Positions 9,615-20,207 of a stretch of DNA of 64,000 bases are shown one piece after another. Position 1 is the first letter of the stretch, and each line of letters begins with the position of its first letter. Under the pieces are notes generated by a model. The model saw only the letters and a program-made list of their open reading frames with translations, searched no databases and was not told where the DNA came from. The position numbers were made by a program, and so were the translations under genes. The stretch is from Deltaproteobacteria bacterium (GTDB lineage: Bacteria; Desulfobacterota; DSM-4660; Desulfatiglandales; HGW-15), in the NCBI GenBank assembly GCA_019310485.1, contig JAFDEF010000012.1, positions 1 through 64,000 of the forward strand. Reading direction: 5' to 3'.

Positions 9615-11390
9615 CTACACTCCGATCTCCAGCTCCTGTGCCAGAGCCTGCTTTTCGTATAGCCTGGTATAAATACTGCCGGCTTTAATGAGGGTGTCAT
9701 GATTGCCGACCTCCACGACTTCGCCCCGGTCTAAAACAACAACCTCGTCCGCCCTGCTTGTTATAGAAAGCCTATGGGACACAATGATGTTCGTCTTCCC
9801 TGCTCTTTCCGCGAGGACTCCATCCAGAATGCGTTCCTCGGTATTTGTATCGACCATTGAGAGCGCATCATCCAGGATTAATATTTGAGGATCAGACAAA
9901 ATGGCACGTGCTATGCTAAGCCGTTGTCTTTGCCCCCCTGAAAGGGTAATGCCACGTTCCCCCAGCAGGGTTTCAAGCCCGTCTCTCAATGATATAGCCT
10001 CCTCGTAGATCTGAGCCAGTTTCAAGGACCTAACAAGCGTTTTCTCCGAAATCCCTTCTCTTCCAAAAATCACGTTGTTTCTCACGGTATCCGAGAAGAT
10101 AAAAGCCTCCTGGGTCGCAAACCCGATGCTCTGTCTCAGGATCTTTAGAGGAATTTCACGTACATCCCTGCCGTCAACGAAAAGCGTTCCTCGCGGTGGA
10201 TCAATAAGCCTTGGAACGGAGCGAAGAAGCGTGGTTTTTCCTGAAGCCACCCTTCCCACCAAGGCCACGGTTTTCCCCTGTGCTATGTCCAGACTGATAC
10301 CCTTTACTGCATAATTACTTTGGCCTGGGTACCTGAGACTTGCTTTTCTGAACTCTATGCTACCCTTGATAGAGAGCTCGACATCTGTCATAGGAGGCCC
10401 TGTAATTTCCGGAATTTCATCAATGATTCTATTTATTCTGCGCATGGACGCTGCCCCTCGCTGGACAAGATTCGTAACCCACCCAATCGCCATCATGGGC
10501 CATGTCAAAAGGTTAAGGTAGCTTATGAATGCCACGAAATCACCTGTGGTAATATGCCCCAGGATTGTAAAGCGTCCTCCCAGCCAGATCACGATGGCGA
10601 GCCCAAGGTTTGTAAATATTGCCATTACAGGGAAAAAGAAAGCCAGAGACCGTGCCAGCTCCATATTGTCTGATATGTACTTGTTGCTCTCTTCCTCAAC
10701 CCTGCGGTAGGTCCAGGGCTCCCGAGCGTAAGCCTTAATCACTCGAATCCCGGAAAATGTTTCCCTTACCCTTTCGGTAAGGTCGGAAAAGGTTGCCTGC
10801 ACTTTTTCATAGCCGGAAGACATGCGGCTGGTCAGAACTCGAGTGACATAAATGAGAAACGGCGCTGGAATTAATGATAGGAGGGTGAGGTGCGGATTAA
10901 TGTAAAGCATGAACCCAATGGCCGCTATTCCCAGCACTGTGCCGTCTGTCAGGGCCACGAGTCCCATGCCCGTTGCCATCCTGATTGCATTGATGTCATT
11001 TATGGCTTTGGCCATCACATCGCCTGTTTTTGTTTTTTGATAAAAAGAAAGGGAGAGGCTTTGAAGATGGTTGTAGAGCTTGTTTCTAAGGGCTTCTTCA
11101 ATTTTCCTTGAAAGGCCGAACAAAAGGTGGCGCCAAACGTAGCGGAGTATGGCCATGACAAAAGCAATGAGCATGATAAGGGTTCCGTAATGAAAAAGCA
11201 CACCAGGCGTAGCTACTCCTGTAGTCAGGGAGTCCACCCCTCGTTTTATAACCATTGGGATAAGGAGCTGGAGCAGGTCTACGGTCAAGAGGCTGGCAAG
11301 GCCTACAGCCAGGGACAACCTGTGCTTGAGGAAGTACTCTTTCAGGGGTTGAAAGCTCTTTATGCTGCTCTTAGATAGGTTCTTGATCAT
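9615..11390 (-). CDS. ABC exporter half-transporter, degenerate-site subunit
   Basis: 591 residues from the ATG at 11390; a GTG at 11420 would add ten residues. Neither has a good ribosome site. Six membrane helices fill residues about 25-310. The ATPase has Walker A GRVASGKTTL, signature LSGGQRQRL and Walker B ILILDDALSMVD, where the catalytic Glu is Asp. That substitution marks the degenerate ATP site of heterodimeric ABC exporters, and the next gene supplies the competent Glu. TTGACA at 11423-11428 on the minus strand, with a weak TATCAG 18 bases on, could be the promoter and would put transcription almost at the ATG. Confidence 0.9.
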   Translation of the reverse strand: MIKNLSKSSIKSFQPLKEYFLKHRLSLAVGLASLLTVDLLQLLIPMVIKRGVDSLTTGVATPGVLFHYGTLIMLIAFVMAILRYVWRHLLFGLSRKIEEALRNKLYNHLQSLSLSFYQKTKTGDVMAKAINDINAIRMATGMGLVALTDGTVLGIAAIGFMLYINPHLTLLSLIPAPFLIYVTRVLTSRMSSGYEKVQATFSDLTERVRETFSGIRVIKAYAREPWTYRRVEEESNKYISDNMELARSLAFFFPVMAIFTNLGLAIVIWLGGRFTILGHITTGDFVAFISYLNLLTWPMMAIGWVTNLVQRGAASMRRINRIIDEIPEITGPPMTDVELSIKGSIEFRKASLRYPGQSNYAVKGISLDIAQGKTVALVGRVASGKTTLLRSVPRLIDPPRGTLFVDGRDVREIPLKILRQSIGFATQEAFIFSDTVRNNVIFGREGISEKTLVRSLKLAQIYEEAISLRDGLETLLGERGITLSGGQRQRLSIARAILSDPQILILDDALSMVDTNTEERILDGVLAERAGKTNIIVSHRLSITSRADEVVVLDRGEVVEVGNHDTLIKAGSIYTRLYEKQALAQELEIGV

Positions 11391-11612
11391 GAGAGAAACT
11401 GATACTGGAAGTGAGGACACAGTGTCAACTGGTTATGCAAGAAGACCTAAAGGTTGAAGGAAAAAAATTGACTTTTTTCTGTTAATCTTTAAATATCCAT
11501 GGCAGCCGAGAGTCAATCCTAGGCTCAAATGGACTTAGGGCTGAGGCGTGAGAAGATTTTTCCGTGCATTTTAACAACACTTTAAGGCTATAGTAAAATC
11601 TGGGGGTTTCAG

Positions 11613-12497: not shown

Positions 12498-12565
12498 TAC
12501 TTCTCCTACCTGCCTCTATCATTTTTGTTGACTTACGCGCTTTTTTCTTCTATACGGAAAAATTG

Positions 12566-12865
12566 AGTTTAGGTGCTTTTTGAGAGCTTAATAGGGAACC
12601 TCGTTAAAGTCGAGGACGGGCCCGCCGCTGTAAGTGGGGACGAACACCGCTGGTTCGCTGGCAGCCAGTCGAGACCTGGTTGCACTGAGAGCGAATGAAA
12701 AGCCACTGCCCGGCACTCAACAGGCTGAGGGGAGAACTTGCAGTTGTAAAGGCCATCAAAGAGTTAAAAAAGCAAATCAAATTACCTTGAGCCTTTACAC
12801 AGAGTTGAGCGCTGGATGGGAAGGCGCGGTTAGTAGGAAGATCCGCGAGTCAGAAGACCTGCCTA
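12566..12865 (+). promoter_or_regulatory. cobalamin (B12) riboswitch with long variable insert
   Basis: The conserved blocks of the adenosylcobalamin aptamer appear in order: AGGTGC at 12571, GGGAA near 12594, the B12 box core GGCCCGCCGCTGTAAG near 12619, GCCACTG near 12702, GGGAAGGCGCG near 12818 and the 3' end AGTCAGAAGACCTGCCT near 12848. The stretch between GCCACTG and GGGAAGGC is about 110 bases, much longer than usual, and is probably an extended stem. An intrinsic terminator follows about 60 bases later, so control is by premature termination when cobalamin is bound. The genes downstream are a B12 uptake set. Confidence 0.93.
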
Positions 12866-12925
12866 ACCAATAGGGAGAAGCCTTCGCGGACTGAGGCATC
12901 CCGCAGATCTTGAGGATAAAAAGGG

Positions 12926-12966
12926 AAATCCCCGGATCGAGAGAGTCGGTCCGGGGATTTTTATTA
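12926..12966 (+). terminator. intrinsic terminator of the cobalamin riboswitch
   Basis: Perfect 11-bp stem AAATCCCCGGA (12926-12936) with TCCGGGGATTT (12950-12960), a 13-base loop, then a T-rich tail TTATTA. It stands between the aptamer and the first start codon at 12985, so it is the expression platform: it ends transcription unless the aptamer is unliganded. Confidence 0.85.
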
Positions 12967-12984
12967 GAAGAGGAGGATTTGACT

Positions 12985-13179
12985 ATGCATATCTACTGGC
13001 GGGTGAAAGAGGAGTTGAAGTACCTGGGGGAAATTCTCGTTTTTCATGATCCAGGCCTTCAAAGAGAATACAGGCGATGGCTTCAAAAAACGGGTGAAAA
13101 TATTGGGGTCGGCAATCATGTTGCTGTATCCATTCGTGAAAAGAGAGTGCTGTGGTCAATGGCCTTCTGCCTTAATTGA
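12985..13179 (+). CDS. 64-aa protein, first gene under B12 riboswitch control
   Basis: A strong GAGGAGG stands eight bases before the ATG at 12985, directly behind the riboswitch terminator. The product is small and soluble: an N-terminal helix (VKEELKYLGEILVFHD), a basic middle (LQREYRRWLQKTGEN), and a hydrophobic end containing one cysteine. No cysteine pairs, no signal peptide. I recognise no family. It is 46 bases upstream of the btuB-like gene. It could be a small B12-handling or regulatory protein or a leader whose translation helps the receptor gene; both are guesses. Confidence 0.6.
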   Translation: MHIYWRVKEELKYLGEILVFHDPGLQREYRRWLQKTGENIGVGNHVAVSIREKRVLWSMAFCLN

Positions 13180-13225: not shown

Positions 13226-15322
13226 ATGAAAAAGTGGAAAGTCGTTTTGGTTATTCAAGTGCTGTTATTAGTATTTCCTTTTTGCAATATACTGGTGGCA
13301 GAAACGTCAACTAAAATGGGTAAGCAAGAGGAAATAGTCACCTTACCGGAAAAAGTTGTTGTCGCAACAAGAGAGGAAGAAGAAATCACCCGTATTCCAG
13401 GAAACGTAACAGTAATAACTTCCGATGATATTGAAAGATCCGTGGCTAAAGACATCCCTGAGCTTTTAAGAAGCGAATCTGGTATTATGGTGACAAACAC
13501 ATCAGGTTCTACCCCAACAGGCATTACGGTAGAAGCACGGGGGTTTAATAATGGTGGCGGGAATGGTGGAAGAACCCTTGTCCTTATTGACGGCTGGAAG
13601 GCTAACCGCGCAGATACAGGGAGCCCAGACTGGGCTTCGATTCCACTGAGCAACGTAGAAAGGATAGAGATCATCCGTGGTCCTGTAAGTGCTATTTACG
13701 GGGATTGCGCCATGGCCGGAGTAATAAATATTATTACCAAGAGTGGCATAGATGGCCCGGCTATTGATCTCGGTGCAGATGTCGGGAGTTGGCGAAAATT
13801 TGGTCAAAAGTTTGCTTTTCAAGGCACCACTGAAGCATTTAAATACTACGTCAATGGCAACCACTCCGCAGAAAAGGGGTACAGAGATAATTCAAATTTT
13901 AGAGTTAATGATTTGAGCAGCAAATTTTCTTACCAGTTGAATCCAGTCATCGAACTAAATGCGAAAATTAGCCTCCATGACGATGATAGAGAACTTCCCG
14001 GTTCTCTGACGGAGTCCGATCTATCGGTCGTGGGAAGAAGGGGGTCGGTTACACCAGCAGACAGTCTGGAAACTAACCAACATAACATCGGATTAGCCGG
14101 TATCTTTATACCTGATGAAAACAACGAATTTGCCATAAGATTTTACCGCAATAAGAGCGATCGTGATTCTCTTTCTTCAATCCCAGGAGCTGGTTATACT
14201 TCTATCAATGACGATGAGCACAACCATAGTCTTTCACTTCAGTATTCGTTAAGCCATTCCATTCGGGGAAGGGGGAATAAAGCTGTCATAGGCGTTGATA
14301 TATTGAAAGAGGAGGTTGAGTCCCAGAGTTTCTCCAACTTTCCGGATCCTCTTTTTCCATTTATCCAAAAACAAACAACAAACTACAAAAGAGAGTTGGT
14401 AGGCTTTTTTTTCCATGACAGTTTATCTTTGACTGATAAGCTAATCTTTGATGCAGGGATAAGGTACGACAGGGGGAGCTTCGATTATGATAATAGAACA
14501 GAAGACCTTGCATCCTCAACAACAACAAGTATGAACGGAGGGAAGGATTTTCACAAATATAGCCCTAAGGCTGCCATGATTTATTTGTTCACAGATGGTG
14601 TTAGCGGGTATTTGAGTTATGCGAGGACGTTTAGATTCCCTAACAGAGACGAACTAACAGGGTTTTGGGGGTCTACGCCTCAGCTTGATCCCGAGAAGGG
14701 AGAAAATTTTGAAATAGGAATGAAGGCCCACCTTGGCTCAAGATTCAAGGGTGGGATATCAGTTTACCACATGAAAGTAGAAGACGAGATCCTATATCGA
14801 CCTCCCGCTGTGGGCACATTTGCTTTTGGCCAGAATGAAAACTTCGATGAAGTCATCCACAAAGGGCTAGAGCTATCCATAGATGCAATCACCTTTCAAA
14901 GGGCTACTATCTTTGGAAGCTATACATTTGTAGATACAGAGATAGAAGAAGGGCCATTTGAGGGAGGGACTCTGCCAATTACGCCCCGGCACATGGGGAC
15001 TATTGGCGCAATTCTTGATCTGGGCTGGGGTTTTTCCTTTTGGAATCAAATAAGATTCGTCGGAAAAAGATACTTAGCAGATGACTTGTCAAATTCAAAA
15101 GATAAACTCCCGAAATTTCATGTTTGGGACTCAAAGCTGAACTATGAATACAAAGGGAATCGGGGAAAAATTTCAGCCTTCTTTGGTGTAAACAATGTGT
15201 TAAATAAGAAATACAATGAGTACGGCGGCGTGGGAGGATATCCATTTGGTTCAAGGATAGGCTTTTATCCCTCCCCCGAAAGAAATTTCACCGTTGGAGT
15301 TACTTTTAGAGGAAAGATTTAG
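13226..15322 (+). CDS. btuB: TonB-dependent outer-membrane receptor, probably for cobalamin
   Basis: 698 residues; start chosen at ATG 13226 with TGGAGGG before it and a signal peptide right after (KKWKVVLVIQVLLLVFPF, cleavage near AET). The TonB-box region (EKVVVATREEEE) and plug domain (ITRIPGNVTVITSDDIERS, then RIEIIRGPVSAIYGDCAMAG and VINIITKSG) precede a 22-strand barrel ending in an aromatic residue-rich strand (NFTVGVTFRGKI). Substrate is inferred from the riboswitch and the downstream B12 transporter genes. Receptors of this family also take iron chelators, so the sequence alone would not decide. Confidence 0.88.
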   Translation: MKKWKVVLVIQVLLLVFPFCNILVAETSTKMGKQEEIVTLPEKVVVATREEEEITRIPGNVTVITSDDIERSVAKDIPELLRSESGIMVTNTSGSTPTGITVEARGFNNGGGNGGRTLVLIDGWKANRADTGSPDWASIPLSNVERIEIIRGPVSAIYGDCAMAGVINIITKSGIDGPAIDLGADVGSWRKFGQKFAFQGTTEAFKYYVNGNHSAEKGYRDNSNFRVNDLSSKFSYQLNPVIELNAKISLHDDDRELPGSLTESDLSVVGRRGSVTPADSLETNQHNIGLAGIFIPDENNEFAIRFYRNKSDRDSLSSIPGAGYTSINDDEHNHSLSLQYSLSHSIRGRGNKAVIGVDILKEEVESQSFSNFPDPLFPFIQKQTTNYKRELVGFFFHDSLSLTDKLIFDAGIRYDRGSFDYDNRTEDLASSTTTSMNGGKDFHKYSPKAAMIYLFTDGVSGYLSYARTFRFPNRDELTGFWGSTPQLDPEKGENFEIGMKAHLGSRFKGGISVYHMKVEDEILYRPPAVGTFAFGQNENFDEVIHKGLELSIDAITFQRATIFGSYTFVDTEIEEGPFEGGTLPITPRHMGTIGAILDLGWGFSFWNQIRFVGKRYLADDLSNSKDKLPKFHVWDSKLNYEYKGNRGKISAFFGVNNVLNKKYNEYGGVGGYPFGSRIGFYPSPERNFTVGVTFRGKI

Positions 15323-15456: not shown

Positions 15457-16359
15457 ATGGAACAAATGCGTTTTAGGCTCTTCATATTTTCCCTTTCCAT
15501 CATTATTGCTTTAAGTGCAGTCGAGGCTCCTGCGTCTGCGCGCTCGTTTGAAGATGCGCTTGGCAGGAAGATCACCCTGAGGAGTGCACCGAAAAGAATC
15601 ATCCCTCTTGCCCCCAACCTGACGGAAATCCTTTATGCCCTCGGCCTTGGGGACAGGGTAGTGGGGGTTACAAGGTTCAGCTCTTATCCACCCGAAGCGG
15701 CCTCCAAGCCGAAGGTGGGCAGTTACATAGACATTAACGTTGAAAGGATAATCAGCCTTTTGCCGGACCTTGTTATTGCGACAGTGGATGGTAATGCGCA
15801 GGGCACTGTAGAACTGCTGGAACAGGCAGGCATAAAGGTTTTTATCGTCAATCCGCGGACAATTACTCAGGTGATAGATACGATCAAGACAATGGGTAAG
15901 GTTTGTGGGATCCAGCAAGAAGCACTGTATGTGGCAAAGCGGTTGCAGGGAAGAGTGGAGCGCGTGGTTGAAAAAACAAGGGGAAGAGGAACCCCCGGTG
16001 TTTTCCTGGAAATAAACATTCGGCCTATTATGAGCGTGAACAAGAAAACATTTCATCATGATCTTATCAGGCTTGCCGGAGGCAGAAACATAACAGAAGA
16101 TGAGCCGATCACCTATCCGCGGATAAACATTGAAGAAGTTATTCGCAGAAGGCCGGATGTAATCATAATATCATCCATGGAAAGGGGAAGCCGTTTTGAG
16201 ATGGCAAGAAAGGAATGGCTCAAGTGGCCCTCTATCCCTGCTGTAAAAAATGGCAGGGTTTACTTGATTGACTCTGACCTGATAGATAGGCCCTCGCCAA
16301 GGCTTGTCCAGGGACTTGAAGAAATGGCAAAGTTAATTCATCCGGAAATCCAGTGGTGA
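15457..16359 (+). CDS. btuF: periplasmic cobalamin-binding protein of ABC transporter
   Basis: 300 residues with signal peptide (residues about 5-27 ending ASA-RS) and the two-lobed helical-backbone fold of class III binding proteins: RIIPLAPNLTEILYALGLGDRVVG opens the first lobe, followed by ISLLPDLVIAT, then a second lobe ending in RPSPRLVQGLEEMAKLIHP. Start ATG 15457 has AGGA upstream; an in-frame ATG at 15397 lacks a site and would bury the signal. Delivers the vitamin from the receptor to the permease. Position in a riboswitch-led operon supports BtuF rather than a siderophore-binding protein. Confidence 0.85.
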   Translation: MEQMRFRLFIFSLSIIIALSAVEAPASARSFEDALGRKITLRSAPKRIIPLAPNLTEILYALGLGDRVVGVTRFSSYPPEAASKPKVGSYIDINVERIISLLPDLVIATVDGNAQGTVELLEQAGIKVFIVNPRTITQVIDTIKTMGKVCGIQQEALYVAKRLQGRVERVVEKTRGRGTPGVFLEINIRPIMSVNKKTFHHDLIRLAGGRNITEDEPITYPRINIEEVIRRRPDVIIISSMERGSRFEMARKEWLKWPSIPAVKNGRVYLIDSDLIDRPSPRLVQGLEEMAKLIHPEIQW

Positions 16360-16468: not shown

Positions 16469-17500
16469 ATGAACATGACGCCAATAAGACCATTGAGTGC
16501 CGGGAAAGTTATAACAATATCGGCTCTCATGTGTGCGTGCCTTTTCCTGGTGGTATTGCTTTCCCTGTTACTTGGCACAGCGGAGATTTCTTTTGACAGG
16601 TTGGTGGGGGCTTTTTCCGGCTCACTTCCAGCAGCGGACCCCTCAGCGCTCATCATATTCAAGATAAGGTTGCCAAGAATAATTCTTGCTGGCCTGGTGG
16701 GCTTTTCTCTTTCACTGGGGGGCGTGGTATTTCAGGCGCTTTTAAGGAACCCGCTTGCGGATCCTTTTATTCTGGGTATTTCCAGCGGATCCGCCTTAGG
16801 TGCAATCATGGGAATTGTGCTCGGTTTCAGTTTTGCCGTGGGGGTTCCTTTTATGTCGTTTGCAGGAGCTCTTTTAACCATATACCTGGTAGTGGCCCTG
16901 GGGACAAGAAAGATGGGGATGGAATCATCCACCATTCTGCTTACCGGGGTGATCCTGAATGCTTTTTTTACCGCGATTATTATGTTTTTCATTTCCACTG
17001 CCTCAAGCAGCAGACTTTATACCATGCTATTTTGGCTTTTCGGCGATCTATCCCAGAGCCACTATGGCCCTCTTGCAATTATTGCACCTGTGGTAGTTGC
17101 GGCCTCAATCGTGCTTTATGGCTTTTCAAAGCACCTTAATATAATTACGGCCGGCGAGGAAAGCGCAGTCCAACTAGGTGTTGAGATTAAGAAAGCAAAA
17201 ATGGCATGTCTGTTGGTAGTTTCCTTGATTATTGGACTGGTCGTATCTTTTTCGGGGCTTATCGGGTTTGTTGGTCTTATTGTTCCCCATCTTGCCAGGA
17301 TGGCTTTTGGTTCCGACCACCGCATGCTAATTCCAGTGGGTTCACTGGGAGGGGCGATATTCTTAATAGTTGCCGACACTCTGGCCAGGACTGTTATCTC
17401 GCCAAGCGAGTTGCCTGTGGGCGTGATAACGGCCTTCTTGGGGGCGCCTTTTTTCATATACTTGCTTATGAAGCGGGGGAGTCAGTGGAGCCGGTCCTGA
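16469..17500 (+). CDS. btuC: FecCD/BtuC-family ABC permease
   Basis: 343 residues with about ten membrane helices. Family landmarks: RLPRIILAGLVGFSLSLGG near residue 70, the NPLADPFILGISSGSALGA loop near 92-110, and GLIGFVGLIVPHLARM near 268, which contacts the ATPase. Forms the homodimeric channel of a vitamin B12 (or siderophore) importer. Its 3' end overlaps the ATPase gene by 16 bases. Confidence 0.9.
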   Translation: MNMTPIRPLSAGKVITISALMCACLFLVVLLSLLLGTAEISFDRLVGAFSGSLPAADPSALIIFKIRLPRIILAGLVGFSLSLGGVVFQALLRNPLADPFILGISSGSALGAIMGIVLGFSFAVGVPFMSFAGALLTIYLVVALGTRKMGMESSTILLTGVILNAFFTAIIMFFISTASSSRLYTMLFWLFGDLSQSHYGPLAIIAPVVVAASIVLYGFSKHLNIITAGEESAVQLGVEIKKAKMACLLVVSLIIGLVVSFSGLIGFVGLIVPHLARMAFGSDHRMLIPVGSLGGAIFLIVADTLARTVISPSELPVGVITAFLGAPFFIYLLMKRGSQWSRS

Positions 17501-18264
17501 CGCTGAAGAACGTTGGATTCAGGTACGGAATGGCCTGGGCGCTCAGAGGAATCGACCTTGAGGTCAATGAGGGCGAGCTTCTCGGGATTCTGGGCCCAAA
17601 TGGGTCGGGGAAGAGCACTCTGCTAAAGCTGATGGACGGAATCCTTGTTCCTGATGAGGGGAAAATCCTGGTCCGCGGCAAAGCGCTTTCAAGTCTGGGG
17701 AGAACAAGTGTGGCTCGTGAAATCGCCATGGTCTCCCAGGAAAACTATTTCAGATTTGAATTTTCGGTTCTCGAGGTGGTTCTCATGGGCAGGTTTCCTC
17801 ATCTGGGGAGATTCCAGTTTGAAGGACCAAAGGATCTTGATATTGCTCTTAATGCACTAAAAGCAACCCATGCCCTTGATCTGGCCGAACGCTCAATCCA
17901 CGGGCTTTCCGGGGGCGAAAAGCAGAGGGTGCTGATCGCAAGAGCTCTTGCGCAGGAGCCGGGCGTGGTTCTTCTCGATGAACCTACTTCTTTTCTGGAT
18001 CTAAAGTACAAAAGAGAAATCTTTGGCCTGGTTTCCTCCCTCAGCGCGGATAAGGGAATAAGTGTAGTGGTGGTTTCACATGATATTGACCTTGTGAGCC
18101 AGTACTGCAAGCGCATTGTGATGTTAAGAGGAGGGATTGTTCATGATTCCGGGGAACCGGCCGAGGTACTCACCCGCACGAATATTGAGGCAGTCTATGA
18201 TTGTCCGGTTTTGGTGGATAACAATCCTGTAACCGGAAAACCAAGAATTACTTTATTGGGATAA
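17485..18264 (+). CDS. btuD: ABC transporter ATPase of the cobalamin importer
   Basis: 259 residues from the GTG at 17485, which lies inside the end of the permease gene with GGGGGA before it; longer readings are only the permease in another frame. Walker A GPNGSGKSTLL, Q-loop VSQENYFRFEF, signature LSGGEKQRV, Walker B VVLLDEPTSFLD and H-loop VVSHD are all intact. Powers import through the adjacent permease. The FepC/BtuD/HmuV class assignment is clear; the vitamin as cargo is from context. Confidence 0.9.
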   Translation: MEPVLTLKNVGFRYGMAWALRGIDLEVNEGELLGILGPNGSGKSTLLKLMDGILVPDEGKILVRGKALSSLGRTSVAREIAMVSQENYFRFEFSVLEVVLMGRFPHLGRFQFEGPKDLDIALNALKATHALDLAERSIHGLSGGEKQRVLIARALAQEPGVVLLDEPTSFLDLKYKREIFGLVSSLSADKGISVVVVSHDIDLVSQYCKRIVMLRGGIVHDSGEPAEVLTRTNIEAVYDCPVLVDNNPVTGKPRITLLG

Positions 18265-18311
18265 AAACCCTGCATCACGTTTTGCCGGTTGTTGTAACAA
18301 GGGGGAGTCGT

Positions 18312-18950
18312 ATGGTTGATATTTTCATTAAAGGAGGGCCGATCATGTATCCGCTCCTGGGGTGTTCAATCCTGGCGCTCACGGTGATTCTGGAGCGGGC
18401 TTTTTTCTGGCTAAGAGAAGACATCCGGCGGGACCAATCCCTTGTAGACCAGGTTCTTGAGCTTTGCCGGCAGGGAGACTGGGCCAGGGTTAAGGAAAGG
18501 GTGGAAGGATCCAAGGATTTTGTCATCAGGATACTGGTCAGCGGGATTGTTCATAGGGAATTTTCAATGAGCAAGGCTATGGAAACCGCGGCATCTGATG
18601 AAATGAAAAGGATGAGGCGGTATCTGGGTGTCCTTGATACCATGATAACGGTTGCGCCTTTGCTTGGAATCTTCGGGACAGTGTTGGGAATCATTACTTC
18701 CTTTGAGCATCTCGGGACGAGCAGCATTGAGCACCCCCAAGCAGTCACAGGAGGTATAGCACAGGCATTGATCACGACCGCCGCCGGGTTGGGAATCGCG
18801 ATTCTATCGGTTTTCCCTTTTAATTACTTTAATTCAAGGGCTGAAAATGCAGCCCTTGCCATAGAGAAATATGCCACGAGTCTTGAAATCGTTTATGAGA
18901 AACTAACACAACGATCTCTTAAGGAGGGAGGCAGCAGACATGAGAGTTAG
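18312..18950 (+). CDS. exbB: ExbB/TolQ/MotA-family proton channel subunit
   Basis: 212 residues starting at ATG 18312, eight bases after GGGGGAG. One N-terminal membrane helix (IMYPLLGCSILALTVILERA) and two C-terminal helices (VAPLLGIFGTVLGIITSF and ALITTAAGLGIAILSVFPFNYF) with the conserved proline and threonine residues of the family. With ExbD it uses proton flow to drive TonB. The operon thus carries its own energising system for the receptor. Confidence 0.92.
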   Translation: MVDIFIKGGPIMYPLLGCSILALTVILERAFFWLREDIRRDQSLVDQVLELCRQGDWARVKERVEGSKDFVIRILVSGIVHREFSMSKAMETAASDEMKRMRRYLGVLDTMITVAPLLGIFGTVLGIITSFEHLGTSSIEHPQAVTGGIAQALITTAAGLGIAILSVFPFNYFNSRAENAALAIEKYATSLEIVYEKLTQRSLKEGGSRHES

Positions 18951-19344
18951 GGTCCACAATACCCGAAGGGCACGAATTGAGATGCTTCCACTGATTGATA
19001 TTGTTTTCTTGCTCCTTGTATTTTTCATCTACGCAATGCTCTCCATGGCAGTCCATCGAGGGCTGCCTGTCATATTGCCCACCTCCTCAACAGCCAAGGT
19101 TGGCAAGCATCTGGTACTTTCAGTCACCGTTCGATCAGACGGAGCAGTATACCTGGACAAACAACGTGTTCCTCCGGGAAGGCTGACGGAACTGCTGAGA
19201 AAAAGATCCGGGCAGCAAAAGGAAGCTGGAGTGCTTCTTTTCGCAGATAAGAGCCTTCCCTACCAGAAGCTTTTTCAGGTTTTGGATGAGATAAGAACAG
19301 CGGGCCTCAGCAGGGTTTCCCTTCAAGCACAGGCGGAGCAATAG
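18940..19344 (+). CDS. exbD: ExbD/TolR-family protein
   Basis: 134 residues: short basic N-terminus, one membrane helix at about 14-34 (LPLIDIVFLLLVFFIYAML) with the essential aspartate in PLIDIVF, and a periplasmic domain ending in VLDEIRTAGLSRVSLQAQ. Overlaps the exbB-like gene by 11 bases, so translation is coupled. Confidence 0.92.
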   Translation: MRVRVHNTRRARIEMLPLIDIVFLLLVFFIYAMLSMAVHRGLPVILPTSSTAKVGKHLVLSVTVRSDGAVYLDKQRVPPGRLTELLRKRSGQQKEAGVLLFADKSLPYQKLFQVLDEIRTAGLSRVSLQAQAEQ

Positions 19345-19346
19345 TT

Positions 19347-20207
19347 TTGAAACGCTTGATTGTTGCTGCAGGAGTGGCTCTTCTCATACATGCCCTTTTC
19401 TTTGGCTTGAAGGTCAAGTGGCCGGAGGAAGCAAACATTTCCTACACGAAGGCTCCCCTGCAACTGCTCCAGGTGGAGTACAAGAAAAAAGTCACACACC
19501 CCTCTCCTCCTTCATTTAAGGTCCCTTCTAAAGCAAAAAGGGCTCCTAGGGGAGATGGCAAGGACTCGAATAAGAAGAAAGTTAAGCAAAAGAATTACAA
19601 AAAAGTAAGTAAAGCCAGCCTGAAAGTGTTAAAAAAGGCCAGAGTTGCCAACAATCTGGAACAGAAAGAGACGAGACCTAGGGCAGCATTTGACGCCACG
19701 CATTTTTTACCAGACTCTCCGCCAACTCCCCTGGCAAAGTTCTATGCTTACGATGAACAACATATAAGAACTCGAAGTATCCAAAAAGTGAAACAAGCGC
19801 CTGCACCTCCAAAAGGGAAGGATATTCTGGGGGGGGTTCTGCAAAGCACCCCTTACGTTACGCCGGCAAAAAGCGAAATTTCAAATACACAGGAAAAAGG
19901 GCAGACTCCAGCCACTCCCCCGCTCACTGAGACTTCCCCTGCTTACCGAGAAAACCCTCCACCAGTGTACCCACTGATGGCCAGGCGAAGGGGTTATGAG
20001 GGGATGGTGGTCCTCAAAGTGCTAGTTAATCGTAGAGGTGGAGTTGACGAACTTCACCTGATCAAGTCAAGTGGATACAAGGTTCTTGACAGGGCTGCCA
20101 TGGATTGCGTCAGAGACTGGGTTTTCGAGCCCGGAACAAGGGGTGGAAAAAGCGTAAAAATGTGGGTTAGGGTGCCGATCCGCTTCTGTCTCAAAGGCAA
20201 ACACTAG
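19347..20207 (+). CDS. tonB: TonB family energy-transducing protein
   Basis: 286 residues from a TTG two bases after the exbD stop, with GGAG upstream. N-terminal membrane anchor (IVAAGVALLIHALFFGL), then a long basic, Lys-Pro-rich periplasmic linker (about residues 40-195), then a TonB C-terminal domain at about 205-286 (NPPPVYPLMARRRGYEG, LKVLVNRRGGVDELHL, DRAAMDCVRDWVFEPG). Contacts the TonB box of the receptor encoded in the same operon. Last gene of the B12 set. Confidence 0.92.
   Translation: MKRLIVAAGVALLIHALFFGLKVKWPEEANISYTKAPLQLLQVEYKKKVTHPSPPSFKVPSKAKRAPRGDGKDSNKKKVKQKNYKKVSKASLKVLKKARVANNLEQKETRPRAAFDATHFLPDSPPTPLAKFYAYDEQHIRTRSIQKVKQAPAPPKGKDILGGVLQSTPYVTPAKSEISNTQEKGQTPATPPLTETSPAYRENPPPVYPLMARRRGYEGMVVLKVLVNRRGGVDELHLIKSSGYKVLDRAAMDCVRDWVFEPGTRGGKSVKMWVRVPIRFCLKGKH

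Follow-up and report, generated by a model that had tools for sequence, protein, structure and literature searches.

The vitamin B12 regulon is among the best-mapped of the cofactor regulons. In delta-proteobacteria, cobalamin riboswitches (B12-elements) control cbiK-cbiL, btuCDF and B12 transport loci, as described in a regulon survey of six genomes (PMC545781). In M. tuberculosis, metE and ppe2 are reported to be preceded by short translated ORFs that lie under B12 riboswitches and modulate the next gene in cis (PMC11260477).

Here we describe a short ORF that invites comparison with both systems. It is like the M. tuberculosis ORFs in being short, under a B12 riboswitch and ahead of a regulated gene (PMC11260477), and it is like the delta-proteobacterial regulons in that a riboswitch controls uptake and synthesis loci (PMC545781). 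It differs from the M. tuberculosis ORFs described there, which act in cis: its product is a conserved small protein (43–68 aa across the family) whose gene occupies many operon positions and often has no next gene called on the same strand. The accessible part of the six-genome survey names no small protein of this kind (PMC545781). No such protein was found in the literature that we covered, which included parts of PMC3766115 and PMC545781 and had most subscription papers and supplements outside its reach; the protein may be in print elsewhere.

The riboswitch, the small gene and the uptake operon

The window, a stretch of 64,000 nucleotides, carries the locus on its forward strand. A cobalamin riboswitch aptamer lies at positions 12554–12880 (RF00174; Rfam covariance model, 74.8 bits against a gathering threshold of 31.5, E = 1.3e-16). 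The stretch given in the preliminary description begins 12 nt within this match. The match is 327 nt long, compared with 189 positions in the model; long aptamers also head the small gene at L034:940–1277 (338 nt) and L035:1832–2135 (304 nt), most others being 169–237 nt. In a whole-genome Rfam search with stricter filters, the aptamer at 12554–12880 was the only RF00174 match in the window's genome (94% complete).

The aptamer is followed by a 17-bp hairpin and then U (12924–12962), which by RNA folding is the probable intrinsic terminator of the riboswitch. The fold of positions 12920–12966 has an energy of -28.8 kcal/mol (z = -5.37), and none of 200 shuffled sequences folded equally well; a simple consensus terminator scan listed no plus-strand terminator at this hairpin. 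The region about 80 to 20 nt upstream of the ORF is similar in other riboswitch-headed copies of the gene.

A GAGGAGG ribosome-binding site (12970–12976) ends 8 nt before the ATG of the small ORF, which runs from 12985 to the end of its stop codon at 13179 and has 64 codons. The preliminary description had pointed out the strong GAGGAGG, which we confirm, and had placed the start 25 bases past the terminator, where we measure 22 nt. We disfavour a longer frame that starts at a TTG (12910–13179), because relatives of the protein share the same M-x-x-Y-W start, and we therefore prefer the ATG at 12985.

In the window, the small ORF sits between the riboswitch and a TonB-dependent receptor gene (13226–15322; Pfam Plug and TonB_dep_Rec), 46 nt before the receptor ATG. 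The receptor is followed by genes for a BtuF-like periplasmic binding protein (15457–16359; PF01497, Peripla_BP_2), a BtuC-like permease (16469–17500; Pfam FecCD) and a BtuD-like ABC ATPase with a provisional start codon (17488–18264; Pfam ABC_tran), and then by exbB, exbD and tonB (18282–20207; PF01618, PF02472 and PF03544). When the first three of these downstream genes were searched against NCBIfam, the best models were a siderophore receptor for the receptor (the B12 receptor model came third), BtuF (PRK03379) and BtuC (PRK09535), none of which reached its curated cut-off; B12 as the cargo of uptake, including that of the receptor, thus rests mainly on the riboswitch. Since RF00174 lies 5' of the ORF, a cobalamin riboswitch heads the unit in which the small gene is transcribed, and the riboswitch score together with the downstream Pfam matches bears out the initial view that it leads a B12 uptake set. 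Upstream, on the opposite strand, the window has a 601-aa ABC-exporter-like ORF (9615–11420). A similar opposite-strand gene lies upstream in locus L025, so synteny reaches past the B12 set.

A conserved small protein family

A first search of 99 genomes, the window's included, gave some match at E ≤ 1 in 62. Apart from the match of the window to itself, those listed included 33 with E-values no higher than 1.1e-6. Profiles A2 and A3, built from these first-round homologues, were used for the tallies. Profile searches found the small protein in 33 of the 85 genomes from the order to which the window belongs (a class-level search returned the same 85) and in 36 of 241 genomes drawn from a second class of the same phylum; carriers are a minority in each. 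A sample of the phylum gave 19 of 395 genomes with a match. One of these, in G182, was weak (E = 0.006, 24 residues, internal stop) and was dropped before copies were counted. There is usually one copy per carrier, with two in G037, G469 and G489 and three in G608. Our analysed set consists of 74 different sequences, 34 from the order (window included) and 40 from the second class; 22 loci from a pattern scan of named genomes correspond to contigs already found and were not counted a second time. Beyond the phylum, coverage consisted of narrow pattern scans and of plasmid and phage searches, and many genomes are incomplete. The window protein alone retrieved three plasmid records, at E ≥ 1, and a narrow peptide pattern made from it had no match in genome contigs; a divergent member gave E ≥ 2 only in plasmids and phages, and narrow patterns found no relative in viral contigs.

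The N-terminal region is well kept across residues 1–37 (YWR..EEL..LGE...F.DP.L.R.Y..W). All 74 sequences have Leu11 and Trp32; Glu16 and Pro23 occur in 73 of them, and Tyr4 and Trp5 in 71. The middle of the protein is variable and the C-terminal end is constant again: Asn is the last residue in 61 of 74, preceded by Leu in 44 and by Ser-Leu in 29, the window's version being Cys-Leu-Asn (13168–13176). The terminal Asn is encoded by AAT in 39 cases and AAC in 22, and the Leu of Leu-Asn uses five codons. Thus, the end is conserved as protein and not as DNA.

The preliminary description had agreed to give up its proposal if synonymous substitutions did not exceed non-synonymous ones. We found dN below dS in all 14 of the closest pairs (drawn from pairs with at least 40 common codons; some sequences occur in several pairs, which are therefore not all independent), with ratios of about 0.07 to 0.76. 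The highest ratio belongs to L158/L173, both copies from one genome. On these sequence comparisons, the small ORF is a real gene under protein-level selection.

The same description had recognised no known family in the protein, and the libraries agree: no member passed a curated cut-off, and no match recurred, in Pfam, NCBIfam or PHROGs. In Pfam (29 members), nothing was credible; the lowest E-value was 0.0033, in one member, and one family appeared in two members at E = 0.054. In NCBIfam (34 members), nothing rose above cut-off (lowest E = 0.039), and in PHROGs (34 members) the lowest E was 0.012; in both, each family appeared in one member. A PDB sequence search gave E ≥ 0.3 only. The lack of library matches is probably caused by the shortness of the protein. 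Family f4 also matched, weakly, a protein with an open frame of 268–288 aa, which we take to be LpxI. We do not consider it a relative: only an IFHDDDIL-like stretch is alike, a short chance likeness, and Pro23, Arg27 and Trp32 of the small protein core are unmatched.

AlphaFold2, given 23 sequences, predicted helices at residues 3–13 and 23–40 (block pLDDT 71–84) and a tail mostly under 50, so that the conserved core (residues 1–40, encoded at 12985–13104) would form a helical hairpin. The model is modest (mean pLDDT 65.5, pTM 0.45), and Foldseek against the PDB gave a single unconvincing match at E = 9.1.

Genomic context of the 74 copies

The surroundings of all 74 copies were searched for riboswitches with Rfam, and 20 loci were searched permissively in addition; neighbouring genes were taken from a longest-ORF heuristic with BLAST to seed proteins, in which unlabelled ORFs under 110 aa were ignored. 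By this approach, 49 of the 74 copies are in a B12 context: 23 directly follow RF00174, one has a partial riboswitch, and 25 are near B12 genes or a further riboswitch. The conserved tiny protein tied to B12 genes that had been envisaged at the outset is therefore borne out. At a contig edge, the 125 bases upstream of copy L055 match the 3' part of the riboswitch leaders of other copies. Within the order, 13 of 34 copies stand directly under a riboswitch (within 600 nt, same strand), whereas about 0.007 would be expected from a random-placement estimate for the order's riboswitches, which served as our chance control. The motif GCCACTG occurs within 800 nt upstream of 19 of the 23 riboswitch-headed copies compared with 1 of the 51 others.

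For 21 copies, the gene immediately before is a same-strand B12 gene: CobO in seven, the TonB receptor in six, CbiK in three, BtuC and TonB in two each, and CbiA in one. The spacing is within 124 nt in 18 of these, and 690 nt at the farthest. In three copies it is the following gene that belongs to B12 metabolism or transport (CobO in one, CbiC in another, and CbiM beyond a riboswitch in the third), and in L036 the small gene is followed by a riboswitch and a receptor. Locus L118 has tandem cobalamin riboswitches (955–1145 and 1411–1602) 5' of one TonB receptor and the small gene.

The remaining 25 copies have no B12 gene or riboswitch nearby; in four of them the contig starts less than 500 nt upstream. 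We looked for hidden riboswitches with the permissive Rfam search of 20 loci, 15 of them unlinked copies, which added no sub-gathering RF00174 match. On a rough tree, made from few columns and with a bootstrap that had not settled, 22 changes are required to account for the three kinds of context, which is below all 200 shuffles (mean 35.3) and far above the possible minimum of 2; the riboswitch label needs 14, at least five of them forced by supported branches. Since the contexts cluster yet need many changes, the B12 link has persisted or been re-established across rearrangements, and has also disappeared.

Several other neighbours recur. Transporters that form a single cluster (the one in L162 is MFS by Pfam) adjoin the small gene in four loci. 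In L114 and L116, where a riboswitch is present, they are divergent and lie upstream; L162 and L172 have no riboswitch, and there the transporter is directly upstream on the same strand. This transporter cluster could be corrinoid-linked. A protein of 366–375 aa, whose members likewise form a single cluster (Pfam assigns that of L178 to radical SAM), lies at +233 in L160, -3281 in L173 and +106 in L178 relative to the small gene, and these loci also have B12 genes. In L037 and L041, from related genomes, the small gene begins 11 nt after the end of a gene for a protein of 172 aa, which Pfam assigns to DUF6125 in L037; there is no riboswitch there.

Proposed role and alternatives

We conclude that the small ORF is very probably a riboswitch-controlled gene whose product is a new trans-acting protein of the B12 regulon, and not a leader peptide or a chance ORF; this reading is drawn from comparative sequence analysis. 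The gene recurs with genes for uptake (TonB receptor, BtuCDF), corrin assembly (CbiK, CbiA, CbiC, CobQ, CobD, CbiB) and adenosylation (CobO), and some copies stand alone under a cobalamin riboswitch. Because the neighbours serve steps that range from uptake and cobalt insertion through amidation and adenosylation to late assembly, we favour a role in corrinoid handling generally over a role with one enzyme. Most likely, the protein would be a small adaptor in this handling.

We propose that corrinoid bound to the riboswitch would cause the terminator to form, and that the small protein would be made under corrinoid scarcity. It may then act as a cytosolic adaptor with a helical hairpin and a flexible tail, the conserved end of which would dock on a partner. 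The predicted hairpin and the loose tail with its fixed last residues suggest such a docking adaptor.

If a single step is to be named, the likeliest is that corrinoid, whether imported or newly made, is handed over towards CobO, and we name it tentatively. Among the 21 copies that directly follow a B12 gene, this gene is most often CobO (7 copies, against 6 for the receptor). This corrinoid adenosyltransferase (CobO/BtuR; TIGR00708, PF02572) is an enzyme of about 170 aa from a different family, and we regard it as a candidate partner and not as a relative. A CobO-family gene is present in 30 of the 33 carriers of the order and in 46 of the 52 non-carriers. As it is common in non-carriers too, the link to CobO is only positional, and it is position that guides our choice of this step.

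The protein does not appear to be tied to de novo corrin synthesis, because 21 of the 33 carriers in the order, the window's genome included, lack a CbiC match (the genomes vary in completeness). CbiC was found in 12 of 33 carriers and 19 of 52 non-carriers (Fisher p = 1), and this equal frequency disfavours the idea that the small protein substitutes for a missing enzyme of corrin synthesis. By this single marker, the small protein serves corrinoid salvagers as well as makers.

The main rival to a handling adaptor is a B12-sparing regulator that would be made at low B12 and would restrain a B12-consuming enzyme or a competing pathway, by analogy with small proteins that take part in iron-sparing responses. 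Control by a riboswitch, and copies that stand alone, would suit such a starvation response, and a predicted helical hairpin with a conserved tail end would suit a binder. A MetF-like gene lies near 5 of the 74 copies, but on the opposite strand in four of the five, and we read it as lineage synteny and not as a functional link. The frequent linkage to uptake and assembly genes points to handling instead, and we consider a sparing regulator possible but improbable.

We think it somewhat less probable still that the protein is an accessory subunit of the membrane uptake machine only, as a partner of the TonB receptor or of BtuCD. Receptor or Btu genes do adjoin many copies, the window's among them. 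However, the copies L028, L054, L156 and L161 adjoin cobQ, cobD, cobO, cbiA or cbiC and have no receptor neighbour, and the model consists of two helices of 11 and 18 residues, with no hydrophobic span by eye.

The preliminary description had also considered a leader peptide, that is, a cis-acting upstream ORF whose translation would tune the next gene, the receptor. The window suits this idea: the ORF lies on the same strand between the riboswitch and the receptor, just before the gene that would be regulated, and the published ORFs under B12 riboswitches introduced above offer a precedent. The family does not keep to this arrangement. Whether the order riboswitch, small gene, receptor is constant had been put forward as a check; this order occurs in only 4 of the 74 copies (the window, L025, L030 and L033). 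A cis-acting leader needs a downstream gene to act on. Among the 23 riboswitch-headed copies, 15 have a next gene called on the same strand, which is a B12 gene in 11 of them and carries no B12 label in four (those of L159 and L177 had no Pfam match), and in eight the next gene is called on the opposite strand (L029, L040, L047, L114, L116, L153, L163 and L179). For the first five of these eight, it is also on the opposite strand in an ORF list that goes down to 70 aa. Copies of the small gene are found on their own under a riboswitch or behind genes for a receptor, cobO, cbiK, btuC or cbiA; 21 follow a B12 gene, and in the alignments the residues are conserved although the genes downstream are unrelated. 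A leader peptide is therefore very unlikely. That a chance ORF arose in the leader of a riboswitch operon would fit its shortness and lack of a family match, but with 73 further homologues, purifying selection and a conserved C-terminus we give this almost no weight.

For the adaptor in corrinoid handling that we prefer, one extension can be put forward as a speculation. The protein could be an adaptor dedicated to corrinoid handling in the cytosol, the first of its kind from anaerobic bacteria: a helical-hairpin protein, induced by corrinoid scarcity, with a conserved C-terminal Leu-Asn tail that docks corrinoid-carrying partners and links BtuCD import and Cbi/Cob assembly to adenosylation by CobO. 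Although 33 of the order's 85 genomes carry the family, nothing matched it in the libraries searched. If our proposal is true, a dedicated small protein for corrinoid uptake or hand-over would be relevant to the way in which anaerobes deal with a scarce and reactive cofactor.
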